A stretch of DNA of 64,000 nt. Source: Bacteroides sp. 519 (lineage in GTDB: Bacteria; Bacteroidota; Bacteroidia; Bacteroidales; Bacteroidaceae). Positions 4,801 to 51,397 of this stretch are shown piece after piece (within the stretch, counting starts at the first letter, position 1; every line of letters begins with the position of its first letter). Under the pieces are notes generated by a model that made no database searches, was not told where the DNA came from, and saw nothing but the letters and a program-made list of their open reading frames with translations. The DNA lies in assembly GCF_010500955.1 (NCBI RefSeq), contig NZ_QVMJ01000007.1, positions 62,001 to 126,000 of the forward strand, in the 5' to 3' direction. The position numbers were made by a program, and so were the translations under genes.

Positions 4801-5025
4801 AACGTTAGCCCCGATAATGGGTTCACCTGATGTGTCCAGGATGATTCCCTTCACAGTTCTTTTCTGCTGATTCACTTCTTCTACCTTTAAAGAGGTATCG
4901 GAAATGTCAACGTTCGCATAAGCATTACTATACGAAACCAGTAAAAACGAGAAAGCAAATGCACATAGTTTTATCCTACGTGTGCTATTGCTACCTCTGG
5001 AATAACTTTGCTTTTTTCCATTCAT
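1813..5025 (-). CDS. SusC/RagA-family TonB-linked outer-membrane transporter
   Basis: About 1,070 residues. I prefer the ATG at 5025 (MNGKKQSYSRG), because it puts a basic n-region and a hydrophobic core ending in SNAYA at the N-terminus; an upstream in-frame ATG at 5070 would add an unlikely extension. After the signal comes a carboxypeptidase-regulatory-like domain (VKGIILDTSGEPIIGANV), a TonB-box-like DEVVVTGFG, a plug domain (MGAPLYVIDGIQVDEG) and a long beta-barrel ending in a terminal aromatic (INVGFNLKF). It imports glycans with its SusD partner downstream. A TACTTTTG -7 element lies at 5068-5075 on the minus strand, without a clear -33 element. Confidence 0.97.
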   Translation of the reverse strand: MNGKKQSYSRGSNSTRRIKLCAFAFSFLLVSYSNAYANVDISDTSLKVEEVNQQKRTVKGIILDTSGEPIIGANVREKNTQNGTITDIDGEFTLNIEQDATLEVSFIGYTTQIVKVNSSNQVKVTLSEDSNVLDEVVVTGFGLSQKKATLTGAISTVGAKDIARSSAATASGALVGKVPGLNTRQTDGRPGGSTQIRIRNMGAPLYVIDGIQVDEGQFNNIDFNDIENISVLKDASASIYGVRAANGVVVVTTKKGKRGSKNTVSINGYYGWQSNFKFTEPADAKTYVKRYVQSETMLIAQGRMKEDQRLYPREEYDKWMAGTEPGYQGFDWYDYIWNTSPQSYINANITGGSEKSNYYVSIGHLQQDATVRSYGGFERTNVQMNIDVQINDRLKIGAGVNGRVESRENPGVPGGDDYWLPRFAVLRNIPVLGAYANGNPNYPQELDDKQTNFAVLNYDRSGRMTEDWRVMQLNANAEYEIVKGLKAKALVSYYFANKTFNNQEFTYELYKYNKESQEYYTSYTMNTPYRERVHENVEEMTSNIQLAYDNKFGYHSVNAVAGLEAIKRKRPHSRIVSTPTANSMSNIKQNEIKEFTEALDNPEARMGWVGRINYNYAEKYLIELSGRYDGSWKFPPGDRWGFFPSASIGWRISEEAFWKESKIANVFNDLKIRASYGLVGNDDTPNYSAFDFLAGYNFDKGGTVLDGDYITGSEPRGLPIRTLSWMEAKIFDIGFDAGFFNNRLRAQLSYFNRKQTGSPERRWDIIIPSEAGFSLPYENLNSTVNRGFDGMITWSDKVSDVNYSVGVNATYARFYDWERYDDRRGNSWDKYRNSIVKRYGYLNWGLEAIGQFQSWEEIASYPIDNDRQGNRTVMPGDVKYKDINGDGVINGMDERPIGYRQDATPTFNYGINLAASWRGFDLAADFTGTFLSTYFQQWEQARAFQNNGNSPQWLLDDSWHLSDPWDANSELIPGKYPMALKDRDGDNTFWGSTFWKHNVKYMKLRNLEIGYTLPQSIVSKAQIGSLRIYVSGTNLFAISNVQGVDPEQQDDNGLGYPTMRVINVGFNLKF

Positions 5026-18165: not shown

Positions 18166-18238
18166 GGTGCCATAGCTCAGTTGGTAGAGCAAAGGACTGA
18201 AAATCCTTGTGTCCCCGGTTCGATTCCTGGTGGCACCA
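18166..18238 (+). tRNA. tRNA-Phe (anticodon GAA)
   Basis: The acceptor arm GGTGCCA (18166-18172) pairs with TGGCACC (18231-18237), followed by A73. D-arm AGCTCAGTTGGTAGAGC, an anticodon loop CTGAAAA giving GAA, and the T-arm GGTTCGATTCC are all present. CCA is not encoded. A tyrosine integrase gene starts 254 nt downstream, so the tRNA 3' end is a candidate attachment site for the mobile island. I did not see a second copy of the tRNA 3' end in the window. Confidence 0.97.
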
Positions 18239-30553: not shown

Positions 30554-30760
30554 TTACTTTTTCGCTTCTTTAGCTTCTTTTCTTAATAGGCTTGCAGGGT
30601 CAATCACAAGGATGTCAATATGGGCGTTGCCGCCTATGACTTCCGTTTCTTCTTCGCTTTCTTCCTGCGGTTTGAGCAGGACTTCGGTAAGGACACTGTT
30701 TATCCCTACCGTGTGGATGAGCAGCTTTTGAAGTTGCTCGTTACTGAATCTTTTTAACAT
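30554..30760 (-). CDS. Small tra-operon protein with an sRNA-complementary start region
   Basis: 68 residues (MLKRFSNEQLQKLLIHTVG...), an acidic middle (EESEEETEV) and a Lys-rich end. No family recognised, but position and codon use fit the tra operon. Its start codon lies inside a leader element (minus strand, 30777-30754: ACAACCACTAAAAGATC then ATGTTAA) that is antisense to the small RNA at 51.3 kb with a single bulge, so its translation could be blocked directly. Confidence 0.65.
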   Translation of the reverse strand: MLKRFSNEQLQKLLIHTVGINSVLTEVLLKPQEESEEETEVIGGNAHIDILVIDPASLLRKEAKEAKK

Positions 30761-30801
30761 GATCTTTTAGTGGTTGTGGGGCTTATCGCCCCGGTTGATA
30801 A

Positions 30802-32821
30802 TTATAGTCTTTTACTTTCGGCAATCTGCTTAATCGCCAGTTCGTAATCCCCGCCGAGTTCGTCCGTTTTTTTGAACACTTCCATCTTTTCGGTTTCCTC
30901 TGTCGTGTAGGTCAGGTATTCTTCGCCGCTAACTTCGGTAGCATACACTGCCGACTGAACGCCACCCAGCCCGAACCATACTTCTTTGTAAAACCTGCCG
31001 GGATGGTTTGCCATGTTGATAGACAGGATTTGTCCTTTCTCTTTGTCAGTCAGACCTAAAAGTGATTGGATTACATCGAAGCGGTTCATCGCCCAGCATA
31101 TATTCGTAGAAAGTATTGAACGAGGGTACGATACTGCGGTCTCCCCTAATGCGCTCGATATATGCCGATACTGCGCTACCGAGTTCCCCGCTTTCGGTCT
31201 TGCTTACCTTATCGTCTTCGGATTTCCAAAGGGTCAAAAGCAGCGTTTTGATACTGTCCTTTTTCTCCACATCGAACTTGTAATCGTCCGTATAGAAAGG
31301 ATTAAAGCTGATCGGATTTTCCTCTGTGTATGTGAAATAAATCCCGTCCTCACCTTTGGTTTTCCGGCGTACCATTTCACAAAGTCCCTGATAGGAATTA
31401 CCCGTATCGACCAGAACTACGTGCGTTCCCTGTTCCCAATACTGGCGGACGAGGTGGTTCATAAAAAAGGATTTACCGCTGCCGGATGGCCCCAACACGA
31501 ATTTATTTCGGTTGGTGGTTATCCCTTGCTTCATAGGTAAATCCGATATATCCACATGGAGGGGCTTACCGCTCACACGGTCGCACATCTTAATGCCGAA
31601 AGGCGAAAGTGAACTTTTGTAGTTGGTTTCCTCTGTGAAGAAACACAAGGCGGGTTCGATGAACGTATAGAAACTTTCCTCCGAGGGAAAATCCCCCGCA
31701 TTGCCGGGCATAGCCGCCCAATAGAGTGTAGCCGCATCCGTTGTATTATGACGGGGTTTACACTCCATAAGAGCAAGCTGCGAACCGACATCGTTCCGGA
31801 TATGTTTCAGTTCCTCCGCATCTTCCGACCATGCCATTACATTGAAGTGCGCCCGGATAGAGGTAAGCCCGAACGAATGTGCTTCGTTCAGGTACTTGTC
31901 TATCCATTCCTTATTAATTTGATTCCCGCGTGAATAGCGGGATAAGGATTGCATATTGCGGGCTGCCTTCTCGAATTTCCGCAGGTTCTCTGCCGAATCG
32001 TCCAGAAAAATATACTGGTTATACACATGGTCGCACGAGAGCAGCAACCCTACGGGTGCGGCAAACGACAATCGGCAGTCGCTCCGGTCGGTGGATAGCT
32101 TTTCATAGCGCATATCCGTTCCGACTGTTCCGGGCAAGTCCTCCACATCGGAAATCGTATGCAGGCATACTTTCTTTGCTCCGATGCGAAGCCCGTCTGC
32201 TCCGAGTTCCATATCCTCTAAGCAGGTCGTATTGTCCAGCGAGAGGGCAAAGTATTTTTCCACCAATCCGGGCTGGCTTTCCGTTCCCGTAATCTCGTCC
32301 GAAGTCAGTCGGGTCAGGCTTATAAATCCCGAATCGTTTACGATACGCTCGAACTGTCCGACCGCTTCCAAAAACCGTGTTGCCGTGTCCTTGTTTACCT
32401 CTTTGGGTATGATGTTCCCCCGGCAAAGCGATGAGAAATTGCTTTGCATTCTCATTCGCTCTTTAGTTGTTTTTGTCAGGAACAGGAAACAGCTATGGTT
32501 CAGGTAGGGGCGTTCGTTGAAGTGGCGTTCAAACGAGCGGGACAGGAAGCTCATATCTTCCTTATCCGTTTCGGGTTTGTAGGTTTCCTTAACGAACCAG
32601 TCCTGCTTTTGGATAATTGAATAATCGGGTAAAACCTTGATTGCTTTTGCCCATGCCGAGTGTATGGCTTCGTATTCGACTGCGGTAACGGTAAACAGTT
32701 CCGGCAGATCGACACGGAAGGCTACCGTTATATCCGCGTCTTTACTGATGATGCAGCCGTGTTCCACCGCCAATAGCGGGAACTTGCTTTCGATGGTAGC
32801 CGCTTTCATTACATTACGCAT
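30802..32821 (-). pseudogene. traG: TraG (VirB4-like transfer ATPase) with internal deletion and frameshift
   Basis: Two out-of-frame pieces. The first (32821-31046, 591 codons) has the TraG N-domain (MKAATIESKFPLLAVEHGC) and the Walker A motif (KFVLGPSGSGKSFFMNHL), then after FNTFYEYMLGD runs into about 14 foreign codons and stops. The second (31089-30802, 95 codons) opens with MNRFDVIQSLLGLTDKEKGQ, the normal C-terminal region (YKEVWFGLGGVQSAVYATEVS). Intact TraG is roughly 800-850 residues as I recall, so about 150-200 residues, including the Walker B and downstream ATPase motifs, are missing at about 31089-31100. The motor should be inactive. Confidence 0.85.
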
Positions 32822-33160: not shown

Positions 33161-33463
33161 TTAAAGGAAGAAGGAGCGTAGGATGGTGGCGGCGACAATC
33201 AGGAAGATACACGCGCCGAACCAAGAGGCGGCGGTTTTCGATGTATCGGGGTCGCCCGAAGAGAACTTGTTATACACTTTGATTCCGCCGATAAGCCCTA
33301 CGACCGCACCGATGGCGTAAATCAATTTTGTGCCGGGATCGAAATACGATGTTACCATATTGGTAGCTTCGGTAATACCCCCGATACCGTTGCCCTGTGC
33401 AAAGGCGGATGATACGGCAGCGAAAATAAAGGCTGCCGACATAAGAATTTTCTTCTTTGTCAT
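33161..33463 (-). CDS. traE: Conjugative transposon protein TraE (DUF4134)
   Basis: 100 residues with a signal peptide ending VSSAFAQ and two membrane segments (about 43-62 and 80-99), matching DUF4134/TraE, the likely VirB2-like pilin subunit. GNGIGGITEATNMVTSYFDPGT is the family landmark (abridged: GIGGITEATNMV). Upstream lies a leader of about 150 nt holding an sRNA-complementary element and a hairpin. Confidence 0.9.
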   Translation of the reverse strand: MTKKKILMSAAFIFAAVSSAFAQGNGIGGITEATNMVTSYFDPGTKLIYAIGAVVGLIGGIKVYNKFSSGDPDTSKTAASWFGACIFLIVAATILRSFFL

Positions 33464-33480: not shown

Positions 33481-33509
33481 GGTACAGGGGTGGAATAGTC
33501 CCCTGTACC
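33481..33509 (-). terminator. Hairpin in the traD-traE gap (possible attenuator)
   Basis: GGTACAGGGG (33481-33490) pairs perfectly with CCCCTGTACC (33500-33509) around a 9-nt loop. On the tra transcript it follows directly after the sRNA-complementary element (33551-33526) and comes 18 nt before the traE start. There is no long U-run. Confidence 0.6.
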
Positions 33510-33525
33510 GGAAATGAATAATTCT

Positions 33526-33551
33526 GTTTAACTTTAATCTTTTAGTGGTTT
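33526..33551 (-). promoter_or_regulatory. sRNA-complementary leader element in front of traE
   Basis: Minus strand: AACCACTAAAAGATTAAAGT and on to TAAAC. It is antisense to bases 51340-51363 of the small RNA with one G-U wobble and one mismatch. Confidence 0.65.
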
Positions 33552-33613
33552 CAAGCGCGTAGCTAACCGTAATCCCGTTCTTTCATCTTGCTTTGTTTTA
33601 ACTGTTATACATC

Positions 33614-35573: not shown

Positions 35574-36305
35574 TGTTCTGAATGTTTTAATTGTTATTTA
35601 TTGAATTATTTGTACCTCTAATCCGGTACTGTTTTTATTCAGTTAATATTTGATTGTTTGCCTATTGATTGCCGCATTTCCATATTGACAGAATGAAATG
35701 CTTTGATAGTTTTCCGCCTGTTCATTTACTTACAGCAATACATAGCTGAAAGAGTAAAAATGCAAAGTGATATTCCGATACAACAGCACTTATTTACAAC
35801 AGTACGACAGCACGACAATACAAATTCAAATAGTTGGTTTTTCACCTCTGTAAATTCATAAATCAGCGAGGCTTCAAATCCATTTTCGAGGGCAAATAAA
35901 CGCCTTCTTTTTCATACTTGCACCATATTTTCGAGGGGTGGTAGCTTCTGTCTGGGATTGTCTATACTTATTGATATACAGTGTGTTATTTATTTGCTAT
36001 AACTTTGCAGCATGAAACGTTGCGGGGTATTCATGCCGATTTTTAAGATAGGCACGGCACTCAAAAATTGCCCGGCGAAGGGCAGTCTTATATCCCGAAA
36101 AGTTCGGGACGAAAAGATGCCCCTTGCGGGCAAAATGTATTTGCATTTTGGCAAATAGCAAGATGTGTTGATTGCAGCAAACTTCGTTTTTTGCAGCATC
36201 AACCACTTGCTCTTCCAGAGGGGATTTTCCTCTCCGAAGTCGGGAAAAATTAAGCCGGCATGAGCCGACCGCAAACGTTCATATAACCACTAAAAGATTA
36301 ATGTT
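35574..36305. other. Divergent traA/mobA gap with candidate transfer origin
   Basis: About 730 bp without a gene. The right half has four clustered inverted repeats: TGCCC/GGGCA at 36069-36084, CCCGAA/TTCGGG at 36094-36108, TGCCC/GGGCA at 36118-36132 and CAAAATG/CATTTTG at 36131-36150. A longer imperfect repeat follows at about 36158-36210 (GTTGATTGC ... GCATCAAC). Such clusters just upstream of a relaxase operon are typical of oriT. The left half is AT-rich with copy C of the 28-bp element. Confidence 0.55.
35939..35966 (+). repeat. Copy C of the 28-bp element
   Basis: TGGTAGCTTCTGTC then TGGGATTGTCTATA, in the traA/mobA gap. The preceding GAGGGG is shared with copy D. Confidence 0.65.
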
Positions 36306-36312
36306 ATGAACG
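36276..36312 (+). promoter_or_regulatory. mobA: mobA leader: hairpin around an sRNA-complementary loop
   Basis: CGTTCATA (36276-36283) pairs with TATGAACG (36305-36312), which contains the mobA start codon (36306). The 21-nt loop holds ACCACTAAAAGATTAATGT, antisense to the 51.3-kb small RNA with only a G-U wobble. Confidence 0.65.
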
Positions 36313-36737
36313 AAGAAAAAAGAGAACCCCGTAAGCGGGGAAAGGGGGGCAGACCCCCGAAGAACGACCCGGCGAAACATCGGCTGACGGTGAACCTGAC
36401 GGACACACAGCACGCCGGATTTCTTGCCATGTTCGAGCAGTCAGGCGTAAGTTCGCTGTCTGCTTTTATCTCAGCCCGCATCTTTGGCGATGAGTTCCGG
36501 GTGGTAAAAACGAACGCATCAGCGGTCGAATTTACCGCAAAGCTGACCGCATTGCACAGCCAGTTTCGGAGCGTGGGCGTTAATTACAACCAGATCGTAA
36601 AGGAGTTGCACAGCAATTTTGGGGAGAAAAAAGCACTTGCATTGCTCTATAAGTTGGAGAAAGCGACCGTAGAACTGGCAGGAATCGGGCGCGAAGTGAT
36701 GCAGTTATGCGAACAGTTTAAGGCGAAATACCTGTAA
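36306..36737 (+). CDS. mobA: Mobilisation protein MobA (relaxosome accessory protein)
   Basis: 143 residues. A very basic N-terminus (RKRGKGGRPPKNDPAKHRLTV, abridged RKRGKGGRPPKND) precedes a ribbon-helix-helix-like region and a helical C-terminus with VNYNQIVKELH. This is the accessory DNA-binding protein that loads the relaxase at oriT. The start codon lies within the leader hairpin described at 36276. MobB begins 3 nt after its stop. Confidence 0.88.
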   Translation: MNEEKREPRKRGKGGRPPKNDPAKHRLTVNLTDTQHAGFLAMFEQSGVSSLSAFISARIFGDEFRVVKTNASAVEFTAKLTALHSQFRSVGVNYNQIVKELHSNFGEKKALALLYKLEKATVELAGIGREVMQLCEQFKAKYL

Positions 36738-46422: not shown

Positions 46423-47217
46423 TTATACTGCAATTGGAGCTTTTATTCCCGGATAAGGATTGTACCCTTCTAATTGGAAATCTTCGTATTTAAAATCAAA
46501 GATGTTTTTTATTGTTGGGTTTACCACCATTGTTGGGTATGGTCTGGGCGATCTCGAAAGTTGCAAATCAACTTGCTCAAGATGGTTCATGTATATGTGA
46601 GTATCACCAAAAGTATGAATGAATTCACCAAGTTGTAAATCGCAAACTTGTGCAACCATCATCGTTAGCAATGCATAAGAAGCAATATTAAAAGGAACTC
46701 CTAAAAATAAGTCTGCACTTCGTTGATACATTTGGCAGGACAGTTTATTATCTGCCACATAAAACTGGAATAACGCATGGCAAGGAGGCAGTGACATCTT
46801 ACTAATGTCTGCCACATTCCATGCACTAACTATGATGCGCCTTGAATCAGGATTACTTTTTAGAGTATTGACAACTTGGCTAATCTGGTCAATATGTTGA
46901 CCATCAGGTGATGGCCACGAACGCCATTGATAACCATATATTGGGCCAAGTTCCCCCTCTCTATCAGCCCATTCGTCCCATATGGTCACTCCATTTTCTT
47001 GCAGATACTTGATATTTGTATCACCCTTTAAGAACCAAATTAGCTCGTGGATTATGGATTTTAAGTGTACTCGTTTTGTTGTAATCAGCGGAAACCCTTC
47101 ATTTAAATCAAATCTCATTTGATAACCAAAAACACTAAGCGTACCTGTGCCTGTACGGTCAGACTTTTTTGTCCCGTTATCTCTCACATGCTTTAATAGA
47201 GTTTCATATTGATTCAT
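46423..47217 (-). CDS. thyA: Thymidylate synthase, first gene of the cargo operon
   Basis: 264 residues from the ATG at 47217 ([15 protein letters not shown]), the same length as E. coli ThyA. Catalytic Cys146 is in [12 protein letters not shown], and Asn177 in [12 protein letters not shown] indicates a dUMP rather than dCMP substrate. It ends KAPIAV, the canonical C-terminus. It makes dTMP from dUMP with methylene-tetrahydrofolate. A consensus promoter lies just upstream (47245-47275) and the methyltransferase gene follows after 4 nt. Its presence inside an AT-rich ICE cargo operon is unusual. Confidence 0.96.
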
Positions 47218-47244
47218 AAAATTATACGCATAAAATTGGCTTTG

Positions 47245-47275
47245 CAAAGTTACGAATTTATATCCAACTGGCAAA
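47245..47275 (-). promoter_or_regulatory. Consensus promoter of the thyA-led operon
   Basis: On the minus strand TTTG (47275-47272), a 19-nt spacer and TAACTTTG (47252-47245) match TTTG-N19-TAnnTTTG exactly. The start of transcription would be near 47238, about 20 nt before the thyA start codon. Confidence 0.85.
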
Positions 47276-49075: not shown

Positions 49076-49086
49076 TCCATTATTTC

Positions 49087-49110
49087 AACCACTAAAAAAT
49101 CAATGTTAAA
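49087..49110 (+). promoter_or_regulatory. topB: sRNA-complementary leader element in front of topB
   Basis: AACCACTAAAAAATCAATGT followed by TAAA ends at the topB start codon (49111). It is antisense to the small RNA at 51.3 kb with one mismatch. Confidence 0.65.
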
Positions 49111-51207
49111 ATGAAAATTATAATTGCAGAAAAACCGTCTGTGGCTAAGAGTATAGCAGCCATAGTCGGTGCAAACAATAAAAAAGATGGCTATATAGAG
49201 GGTAACGGGTATGCCGTTACATGGGCTTTCGGGCATCTGGTCGGGCTTGCCATGCCGGAGCATTACGGCATCGAAGGTTTTAAGCGAGAGAACCTGCCGA
49301 TACTCCCGAAAGAATTTAAGCTGTTGCCCCGTCAGGTAAAAGAGGGCAAGGAGTATAAGAACGATCCCGGCGTAATGAAACAGCTTAAAGTAATCAAAGA
49401 GTTGTTTAATAGCGGGGATGAAATTATTGTGGCTACCGATGCCGGACGTGAAGGAGAACTCATATTCCGCTATATATTTGAGTATATAGGCAGTTCACTT
49501 CCGTTCCGCCGTTTGTGGATAAGCTCACTTACCGACAGAGCAATCAAAGACGGTTTCCAAACCCTACGTCCCGGAAGTGATTACGATAACCTCTATGCTT
49601 CGGCGAAAGCCCGCAGTACCGCCGATTGGCTTGTCGGCATTAACGCAAGTCAGGCACTTTCTATCTCCGCAGGCTATGGTGTCTGGTCGCTCGGCAGGGT
49701 ACAGACACCGACACTGGCGATTATTTGCAGCAGATACCTTGAAAATAAGGATTTCAAGCCGCAAACCTATTTCCGTCTGAAACTGCATACGGCGAAAGAT
49801 GCTGTGGCTTTTCCCGCCCTTTCGGTGGATAAATTCGTTACCCGAACCATCGCCGAAGAAGTAACGGCACAGGTCAAAGCTGCCGGAGCGGTTAAGGTTA
49901 CAGGCGTAGAGCGTAAGGAGGTCAAACAGGAGCCGCCTTTGCTTTACGACCTTACCACCCTTCAAAAAGAAGCCAACAGCAAGCATGGTTTTTCGGCAGA
50001 TAAGACCTTGACAATAGCACAGGCATTATACGAAGCGAAAAAAATCTCGTACCCACGAACAGGCAGCCGCTATATCTCCGAAGACGTACTGGAGGAAATA
50101 CCGCACCTGATCGCTATGCTTCGTTCGCATCCTCTTTTCGGTGCGTATATCGACAGCAGGTTCGATACAACGCTTAATATCCGTTCGGTGGACGATACGA
50201 AAGTTACCGACCACCATGCGCTGATTATTACGGAAGATCCGGCTACCGGATTATCCAAAGACGAACAGCTTATCTACGATATGATTGCCGGGCGTATGCT
50301 TGAAGCCTTCGGCGAACGTTGCATCAAAGAGAACACCACCGTTTCGCTTGACGCGGGCGGCGTACACTTCTCCTGCAAAGGCAGCGTTACGCTCGTCCCC
50401 GGTTGGAGGTCAGTATTTAACTTTAAGGACGAGCCAAACGATGAGGACGATACGGCAGTTCTGCCCGCCCTCATAGAAGGTGATAGTCTATCTGTCCGCG
50501 ATTGCGAAATTCAGGAGAAGCAGACCAAGCCCCGCCCGCTTCATACAGAGAGTTCATTGCTGGCGGCGATGGAGAGTGCAGGTAAAGAAGTAGAGAACGA
50601 AGAAGAACGGGAGGCGATGAAAGACTGCGGTATCGGAACACCCGCTACCCGCGCGGCGATTATTGAAACCCTGTTTTCCCGCGAGTATATCACCCGTGAA
50701 AAGAAATCCCTTGTACCGACAAATAAAGGGCTGGTGGTCTATCTGGCGGTAAAGGATAAGAAGATTGCGGACGTTGCCATGACCGGGCAATGGGAACAAG
50801 CCTTGAATAAGATAGCATCGGGCGATATGGAGGTATCGACATTCCATAAAGCAATAGAGGTTTATGCTTCACAGATAACATCCGAATTGCTTGATATGAC
50901 ATTTGAATGGCAGGATAACCGCCAGTCATGCCCTTGCCCGAAATGCAAGAACGGGAATGTGATTATCTACAATAAAGTCGCCAAGTGCCAGAATGAAGCC
51001 TGCGGGCTTACCGTATGGCGTTCCATTGCTAAAAAGGAACTGACGGACGGGCAACTGACAGACCTTTTGATGAACGGCAAGACTGCCTTTGTTAAAGGTT
51101 TTGTAAGCAGCAAAACAGGAAGCACTTTCGAGGCAGCAGTCAAGTTCGATGCGGACTATAAAACGGTCTTTGAGTTCCCGCAGAATAAAGGTGGTAGCAA
51201 AAAATGA
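49111..51207 (+). CDS. topB: DNA topoisomerase III (type IA; Exc-like ICE protein)
   Basis: 698 residues. Toprim domain at about 1-140 (MKIIIAEKPSVAKSIAAIVG with catalytic Glu7; ATDAGREGELIFRYI). The active-site Tyr is in KKISYPRTGSRYIS; the usual Asp after YPRT is Gly here. The C-terminus has a Cys-rich zinc-ribbon (CPCPKCKNGN, AKCQNEACGL). In CTnDOT the homologous Exc protein is needed for excision. It is followed by the small-RNA gene, as reported for RteR. Confidence 0.93.
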   Translation: MKIIIAEKPSVAKSIAAIVGANNKKDGYIEGNGYAVTWAFGHLVGLAMPEHYGIEGFKRENLPILPKEFKLLPRQVKEGKEYKNDPGVMKQLKVIKELFNSGDEIIVATDAGREGELIFRYIFEYIGSSLPFRRLWISSLTDRAIKDGFQTLRPGSDYDNLYASAKARSTADWLVGINASQALSISAGYGVWSLGRVQTPTLAIICSRYLENKDFKPQTYFRLKLHTAKDAVAFPALSVDKFVTRTIAEEVTAQVKAAGAVKVTGVERKEVKQEPPLLYDLTTLQKEANSKHGFSADKTLTIAQALYEAKKISYPRTGSRYISEDVLEEIPHLIAMLRSHPLFGAYIDSRFDTTLNIRSVDDTKVTDHHALIITEDPATGLSKDEQLIYDMIAGRMLEAFGERCIKENTTVSLDAGGVHFSCKGSVTLVPGWRSVFNFKDEPNDEDDTAVLPALIEGDSLSVRDCEIQEKQTKPRPLHTESSLLAAMESAGKEVENEEEREAMKDCGIGTPATRAAIIETLFSREYITREKKSLVPTNKGLVVYLAVKDKKIADVAMTGQWEQALNKIASGDMEVSTFHKAIEVYASQITSELLDMTFEWQDNRQSCPCPKCKNGNVIIYNKVAKCQNEACGLTVWRSIAKKELTDGQLTDLLMNGKTAFVKGFVSSKTGSTFEAAVKFDADYKTVFEFPQNKGGSKK

Positions 51208-51272
51208 CGTTCTAAGTAAAATCTTCATTATCCTTTCATAAGATACTCACGCTCGACAATGTTAAAATGAAT

Positions 51273-51303
51273 TTTGCACTGTTCTCGCTTAATCGTATCT
51301 TTG
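51273..51303 (+). promoter_or_regulatory. Consensus promoter of the RteR-like small RNA
   Basis: TTTG (51273-51276), 19 nt, TATCTTTG (51296-51303): an exact match to the Bacteroidetes housekeeping consensus. No start codon or gene follows before the terminator. Confidence 0.88.
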
Positions 51304-51309
51304 CCACTG

Positions 51310-51397
51310 AAAGACTTTGTTTTACGATTCGGAATAGTCGTTTAACATTGATCTTTTAGTGGTGGGCATCCGGGGCAAGGCTTCGGATGCCTTTTTT
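51310..51397 (+). ncRNA. RteR-like small RNA with an antisense seed to tra, mob and topB leaders
   Basis: A transcript of about 88 nt is defined by the promoter at 51273-51303 and a terminator: GGCATCCG (51365-51372) pairs with CGGATGCC (51384-51391), followed by six T. Its place behind the topoisomerase gene and its size match what I recall of RteR, the roughly 90-nt RNA that lowers tra expression in CTnDOT. The single-stranded part just before the terminator (51340-51364: GTTTAACATTGATCTTTTAG and TGGTG) is antisense to four leaders at 30754, 33526, 36284 and 49087. Transcription itself is unproven here. Confidence 0.82.

Follow-up and report, generated by a model that had tools for sequence, protein, structure and literature searches.

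Directly behind the topB gene of a transfer element in Bacteroides sp. 519, and on the same strand as that gene, lies a short segment without an evident protein product, in the position expected of an RteR-type locus. The question that it raises is what this segment specifies and how its product might reach the genes for DNA transfer that are scattered over the same element. The DNA that we analysed, referred to below as the window, is a stretch of 64,000 nucleotides (contig NZ_QVMJ01000007.1, positions 62,001 to 126,000). We consider it highly probable that the locus encodes a member of the RteR family, or a close sister of it, which acts as an antisense RNA that shuts several start regions; its transcription, the opening of its seed and the repression itself are inferred.

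The proposed small RNA locus and its matches in the window

A sequence-only reading of this DNA had described the locus as a consensus promoter, about 88 nt of RNA and a strong terminator, with no protein frame. The promoter elements match the Bacteroides consensus TTTG / TAnnTTTG, as given in PMC7366714, and the hairpin of the terminator (51364-51392) contains 13 pairs, eight of them G-C, followed by a T-run. On neither strand does an ORF of at least 70 aa overlap 51273-51397 (shorter ORFs were not listed). These parts of the description stand, and the length has to be amended to about 92 nt, as the RNA would start near 51306 (Table 1). A sigma-70 promoter scan also returned a match near the sRNA, which is not the promoter proposed here; such scanning does not cover Bacteroides promoters.

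Just before the sRNA, at 51250-51296, the window has about 67 bases extra relative to the copy of the element on contig C94 of the same genome. In class G2, one of the seed classes defined below, a stretch related to these extra bases contains a clear inverted repeat, GACAATGC...GCATTGTC, that overlaps the -33 box and looks like an operator for the sRNA promoter.

Table 1. Positions of the small RNA, its parts, the matched genes and the pairing sites in the window.
Feature	Position	Strand	Basis or remark
sRNA promoter	51273..51303	+	sequence inspection and published consensus; -33 TTTG (51273-51276), 19-nt spacer, -7 TATCTTTG (51296-51303)
RteR-like small RNA, ~92 nt	51306..51397	+	promoter and terminator; 5' end inferred from the -7 box
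5' arm, pairing with the seed inside the RNA and covarying	51306..51315	+	folding; cross-class pairing counts
Antisense seed	51340..51362	+	constant end GTGG, rest variable; 5' to 3' towards the terminator; scan and covariation
Intrinsic terminator, hairpin and T-run	51364..51397	+	hairpin search
topB, DNA topoisomerase III; target and upstream neighbour of the sRNA	49111..51207	+	NF005829 and TIGR01056 above cut-off
mobA, target	36306..36737	+	NF041324 (Bacteroid_MobA) above cut-off
traE, target	33161..33463	-	DUF4134 (PF13572); weak TrbC/VirB2 pilin match
68-aa gene between traG and a traI-like gene, target	30554..30760	-	ORF
Pairing site, topB leader	49085..49108	+	its CCAC starts 22 nt ahead of the ATG (49111)
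Pairing site, mobA leader	36283..36306	+	reaches the start codon at 36306; one G-U
Pairing site, traE leader	33529..33552	-	66-89 nt upstream of the traE start
Pairing site, 68-aa tra-region gene	30754..30777	-	across the start codon (30760); one bulge

To locate possible partners of the RNA, the 24 bases that precede the terminator were taken as the seed, and both strands of the window were scanned for ungapped matches to it. If the antisense of the sRNA itself is disregarded, the four best sites are the four leaders to which the sequence-only reading had found the seed complementary: those of topB (49085; 21.5 of 24), mobA (36283; 21), traE (33552, minus strand; 19.5) and the small tra gene (30777, minus strand; 18, lowered by its bulge), the next-best site scoring 17.5. 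The pairing element reads CCACTAAAAGATYAATGT in the window's class, G1, and the mismatch in the topB site sets an A opposite a C. When up to three mismatches are allowed, the leader pattern has eight matches in the whole 5.56-Mb genome (six leaders and two sRNA genes), all of them within the window element or its near-identical copy on C94; the reversed control has none. That pairing would extend across start regions, as had also been proposed, is borne out for topB, mobA and the 68-aa gene, where the site ends just before the start codon or overlaps it. It fails for traE, where the site lies well upstream (Table 1) and a strong hairpin, GGTACAGGGG...CCCCTGTACC at 33481-33509, is placed between site and start. 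The traE leaders of other classes mostly retain a site about 80-90 nt upstream.

With the cost of opening both RNAs included, the net predicted binding is -9.7 kcal/mol at the topB site (-8.9 with a slightly different slice), -10.8 at mobA, -17.2 at traE and -17.0 at the 68-aa gene, against a median of -2.0 kcal/mol over 76 start regions of the window (ATG, at least 100 aa). Outside the tra and mob genes, a net of -10.4 kcal/mol is predicted for a 1070-aa ORF of the minus strand with its start at 5025, which may be an off-target or a chance match.

The surrounding genes are those of a transfer element. MobA, MobB, MobC, TraG and TraJ are supported by NCBIfam and Pfam, and TraE by DUF4134 only; traE is a name that we assume for this gene, and topB we take to correspond to exc of CTnDOT. 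For the 68-aa gene there is no NCBIfam or Pfam family match. A split interrupts traG (30802-32821): the beginning of the TraG model is covered by a 591-aa ORF, and its C-terminal part by a 95-aa ORF that overlaps the former in a different frame. In addition, a search of window positions 17001-62000 gave no traN, a gene that the C94 copy has; for these two reasons the window copy may not be able to transfer on its own. A thymidylate synthase gene lies at 46423-47274, between the mob region and the DUF4099-topB pair. A tRNA-Phe gene at 18166 was considered as the end of the element, and no repeat of the tRNA tail was present in the window.

Co-variation of seed and leaders among related elements

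Relatives of TopB were collected from 61 genomes, and 29 of the best 33 matches, the window included, were used; left out were two at or near contig ends, one on a 3.7-kb contig and one apparent duplicate. A second set of 80 named topB loci among the matches listed brought the total to 109 rows, and a further 26 topB loci lie outside the sRNA count. Automatic finding followed by hand correction, limited to about 900 nt behind topB, placed an RteR-like unit in 59 of the 109 rows. The automatic finder, which replaced a stricter first version that recognised units in 2 of 29 elements, returned 57 units; one of these (L170, from the Flavobacteriaceae) was dropped as false by eye, three (E23, L171 and L172) were added by hand, and the 5' ends of the E00, L138 and L144 units were corrected by hand. 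With L170 judged false, no unit was accepted at loci of Flavobacteriia, Sphingobacteriia or Cytophagia among the 80 listed. In seven of the 29 first-set elements (E10, E11 and E24-E28, corresponding in part to L057/L058, L059/L060 and L085-L094) topB is not followed within about 900 nt by a unit that we recognised as RteR-like. Since some genomes are represented by rows in both sets, tests were run on classes and not on rows, the seeds having been grouped by hand, by likeness, into 18 classes, some of which are close relatives (G6/G6b; G7/G8/G17).

The seeds differ among elements, and as a rule each has its complement in the topB leader of its own element, such as CCACTAAAAAATCAATGT with G1, CCACAAAAATCC with G4, CCACAAATTAATTCAAAG with G5, CCACTAAATCCAAAGTA with G7 and CCACTAAAATCCACAACA with G16. 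Swapping seeds and topB leaders among the 18 classes (L138, with no leader on its contig, and L146, the same record as E15, being left out) gave a summed pairing energy of -427.7 kcal/mol for own combinations versus -300.0 +/- 14.2 for permuted ones, and none of 100000 permutations reached the own sum. The own topB leader ranks first in 11 of the 18 classes and second or third in three; in the remaining four (G6, G6b, G11 and G18) it has no match. For a count by position these four were removed beforehand, G6 and G18 for a low score and G6b and G11 for the lack of a CCAC in the leader. Across the other 14 classes, 167 of the 196 cells at positions 5-18 are paired, versus 110.4 +/- 8.3 after shuffling (0 of 20000 reach this), and at 13 of the 14 variable positions between two and four kinds of Watson-Crick pair occur. 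In leaders with several CCAC anchors, we took the site that best fitted the own seed, both in this count and in the comparison with the 5' arm below, which favours the seed somewhat.

The idea of direct pairing had been put forward with the suggestion that seed and leaders be compared in related ICEs for compensatory changes, and was to be abandoned if the two diverged independently. The pairing survived that comparison and independent divergence was not what we found, so that complementarity is kept by compensatory change, as a trans-acting antisense RNA requires, and the idea gains support. The joint change of seed and leaders constitutes strong evolutionary evidence for action by pairing with messages.

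The seed has a second partner within the RNA itself. Seed and 5' arm are paired at 121 of 144 positions, versus 93.3 +/- 5.3 with shuffled partners (18 classes), and the lowest-energy fold in all 18 classes consists of a 5' hairpin with the seed as its 3' arm, followed by the terminator; for the window RNA this hairpin has a z of -4.7 to -6.7 versus shuffles, depending on the start used. Because the prediction leaves the seed paired in every one of the 18 classes, it would have to be opened in some way before it could act, yet net pairing with the targets is still predicted to be favourable. So stable a hairpin, covarying internally in an RNA placed directly behind topB, could instead be all that the seed is kept for, as part of an attenuator or of the 3' end of the topB message, with the likeness to leaders being that of an old inverted copy maintained by recombination. 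We find this the least credible of the readings considered, since the leaders change with the seed rather than with the leader-like 5' arm: they agree with the complement of the seed at 127 of 140 positions and with the arm at 73, the discordant positions dividing 55 to 1. Moreover, the match is shared by several dispersed genes and not by their neighbours. The same 55 to 1 division disposes of the 5' arm as a mimic of the leaders.

Matches within an element and differences between elements would likewise arise if the shared sequence were a DNA operator for a transcription factor, the sRNA holding a reverse copy of it by descent and changes in the specificity of the factor altering both. This is very improbable in our judgement, because strong sites occur almost exclusively in one orientation to the following gene, beside or over start codons, and because the copy in the sRNA lies between a promoter and a terminator together with a 5' arm that covaries with it. 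The imperfections at 51 sites point in the same direction: besides 30 transversion-type mismatches there are 25 G-U and 12 A-C (P 0.024), a modest excess that leans towards pairing between RNAs. An earlier count of 20 to 7 came from a biased set, chosen by a score that favoured G-U.

Predicted target genes and the likely outcome of pairing

If the RNA acts in trans by pairing, the leaders of its target genes should follow the seed of their own element. Leaders of orthologous genes were located by protein similarity and not by the presence of a site, and were scored out of 18 with their own and with foreign seeds. Own seeds score higher at the leaders of TopB (14.9 versus 11.9; 16 classes; reached by 0 of 5000 permutations), TraE (15.7 versus 12.0; 8 classes; 1 of 5000), TraN (15.4 versus 11.8; 7 classes; 1 of 5000), the DUF1896 gene (13.9 versus 11.9; 9 classes; 1 of 5000) and MobA (13.25 versus 11.6; 9 classes; 16 of 5000). 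No own-seed excess is seen at the leaders of MobB, MobC, TraG, ParA, TraB, TraC (in three classes only) or DUF4099. TraI and TraJ are borderline (221 and 102 of 5000 permutations), and the leader of an excisionase-like HTH gene, which matches in G7 and G9, is not significant over five classes (427 of 5000). The 68-aa gene, present in one class only, and TraF are found in too few classes for the comparison. At the level of comparative sequence analysis, then, the complementarity, its maintenance by two-sided change and its specificity for particular genes are demonstrated.

The set of targets turns over between elements, as some combinations of gene and class lack a good own match; apart from the topB leaders named above, this applies to mobA in G4, G5, G6 and G15. 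In the rows shown, the traE leaders of G7 and G9 reach only 12.5 and 13.0 of 18, a weak match. In class G6 (L055/L115, equivalent to E09, and L061/L114, equivalent to E12) the topB site is lost and a DUF4099-like ORF of 436-438 aa has a site 21 nt before its start, so that in this class the target set has shifted.

Strong sites are concentrated at leaders, defined as places where an ATG frame of at least 50 aa begins within 100 nt or where topB follows. The 79 sites that score at least 15 of 18 in 20 elements comprise 20 sRNA genes, 55 leaders and four elsewhere, one of the latter being an sRNA 5' arm, whereas shuffled seeds with GTGG kept yield 4.1 sites on average and at most nine in all. 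Forty-six strong sites have an ATG frame downstream; 32 of them begin 13-24 nt before it, and most of the remainder, at 78-90 nt, are those of traE. Short hairpins 5' of the target sites have a z below -1.5 in 20 of 52 rows (one row being an sRNA gene), and are no more than suggestive as a shared feature.

The mechanism that we propose is as follows. An RNA of about 92 nt would be made from its own promoter behind topB. It would fold as a 5' hairpin followed by a terminator, and the antisense seed, of about 18-22 nt, would be the hairpin's 3' arm. The seed would open and pair in trans with the matching element of several messages from the same element, namely those of topB, mobA, traE and the small tra gene and, in sister elements, also of traN and the DUF1896 gene. 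Pairing would then block the initiation of translation, with secondary loss of mRNA, so that one RNA may hold down the relaxosome (mobA), the pilus or channel (traE, traN), excision/topoisomerase and the DUF1896 gene together. A block of initiation is likely because most targets have a site that begins 13-24 nt ahead of the start codon, the usual position for such a block. The main rival accepts the pairing and differs as to its outcome, which could be cleavage or decay of the mRNA, altered intercistronic processing, or titration of the RNA by leaders that serve as sponges. An outcome of this kind is supported by the traE sites, which most classes that possess one place about 80-90 nt ahead of the start. 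We hold this rival to be unlikely without being able to set it aside, given where most of the strong sites lie and given that GibS, from the same genus, pairs over start codons (PMC7366714). Antisense control of initiation remains the reading that we prefer and, judged from the comparative data, it is a mechanism newly supported for a known kind of RNA, with many new classes.

The RteR family and co-resident elements

RteR of CTnDOT was reportedly described by Waters and Salyers in 2012. The window RNA shares with it, and with the Rfam family RF04181, a location directly behind an exc-type topoisomerase gene, an inferred size of about 90 nt and two hairpins, the two-hairpin structure of the rteR model being met by the predicted fold of the window RNA and of all 18 classes. 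The match to the model covers positions 1-84 of 84 at 29.5 bits (E 0.0069 in a 251-nt search, Rfam 15), whereas the gathering cut-off is 72 bits; sister copies L040 and L050 also score 29.5 bits, with E 1.6 in a 57-kb search. The label RteR-like, given to the RNA without a database search, thus agrees with a full-length though sub-threshold match, and the window RNA resembles RteR in location, inferred size and predicted fold while lying outside the cut-off of the published model. The same model was run on 20 sources (three named contigs, together with 17 stretches, each about 2 kb long, that follow other topB genes). Five pass the cut-off (classes G4, G6 and G6b, all starting right behind topB), ten have a full-length match below it (G1, G3, G7, G8, G9 and G10), and five (a G2 stretch, two G5 stretches and two contigs without a unit) have no match up to E 5; the cut-off misses eight of the 11 classes tested. 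Among 158 genomes of the genus, 45 have a match at E <=0.01, of which 22 are above the cut-off.

That the RNA resembles the CTnDOT original is inferred from Rfam, citing papers and general background on RteR. In the literature since 2012 RteR has been referred to as inhibiting Bacteroides conjugation, with a reported effect on tra expression, and the relevant passages of PMC7366714, PMC10994844, PMC9299015, PMC5729914 and PMC4020798 do not state its mode of action. Nor do these passages describe a seed with multiple targets or its co-diversification with leaders, which is not a claim that such a description is absent from print. GibS of Bacteroides thetaiotaomicron, likewise a Bacteroides sRNA, pairs over start codons and is a metabolic regulator with an unstructured 5' seed (PMC7366714). 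The window RNA differs in that its predicted seed lies beside the terminator as the 3' arm of a hairpin, and in that a mobile element carries it. Control of conjugation by antisense RNAs is also known from plasmids, FinP being encoded in cis opposite a single target and other plasmid antisense RNAs serving similarly. The window RNA differs from FinP in that it would act in trans, with matches to several dispersed leaders. What it would have in common with FinP/FinO of F-like plasmids is that an antisense RNA carried by the element controls conjugation (FinP: PMC9299015), and with sgm-sRNA of SGI1 that an sRNA encoded by the element takes part in transfer; the latter, according to PMC9299015, is derived from a 3'-UTR, is required for mobilization and belongs to a different host.

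The genome of the window contains at least six such elements of five classes, in that contigs C94, C32 and C138 hold a near-identical second copy and four more diverged elements of four other classes. With one seed per class, 25 gene leaders of this genome score on average 15.6 of 18 with their own seed (minimum 10.5) versus 12.1 with foreign seeds (100 cells; maximum 16.0), and at 20 of the 25 no foreign seed equals or exceeds the own one. The exceptions are mobA of E04 and E05, topB and traE of E02 and traN of E03, and close classes can cross-pair, as the seed of E03 on the topB leader of E02 scores 16.0 of 18, equal to E02's own. By these predicted scores cross-talk between elements is limited, but it is not absent, and the two G1 copies, having the same seed, should affect each other.

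A resistance gene accompanies one of the classes. Of the records searched, only those of class G7 gave tet(Q) near the sRNA, 13 out of 21 (tblastn, >60% identity; one partial, and some of the records incomplete), about 7 kb behind topB and the sRNA in L143 and L152; the sRNAs of this class score about 40 bits with Rfam rteR. The 12 genomes checked gave nine full-length Tet(Q) genes, seven of which have a 39-41-bit rteR match no more than about 10 kb away; the exceptions are the two in G572. No Tet(Q) gene was found in the window's own genome. Class G7, with tet(Q) beside its sRNA, thus bears on the restraint of the carriers of a common resistance gene.

The 18 natural seeds, most of them with matching leaders, predict pairs of RNA and gene that include mobA, topB and the DUF1896 gene outside the tra operon, and because they predict which RNA acts on which gene, the mechanism can be tested without designed mutants. 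We propose tentatively, at somewhat less than even confidence and with the selective cause left open, that the RteR RNAs and the start regions of their own elements form a code of self-recognition, in which seeds and sets of targets have drifted jointly into about 18 pairing classes. If this is true, co-resident elements would each be controlled mainly by their own RNA, and copies of the same class would silence each other, in a manner resembling the incompatibility of plasmids.
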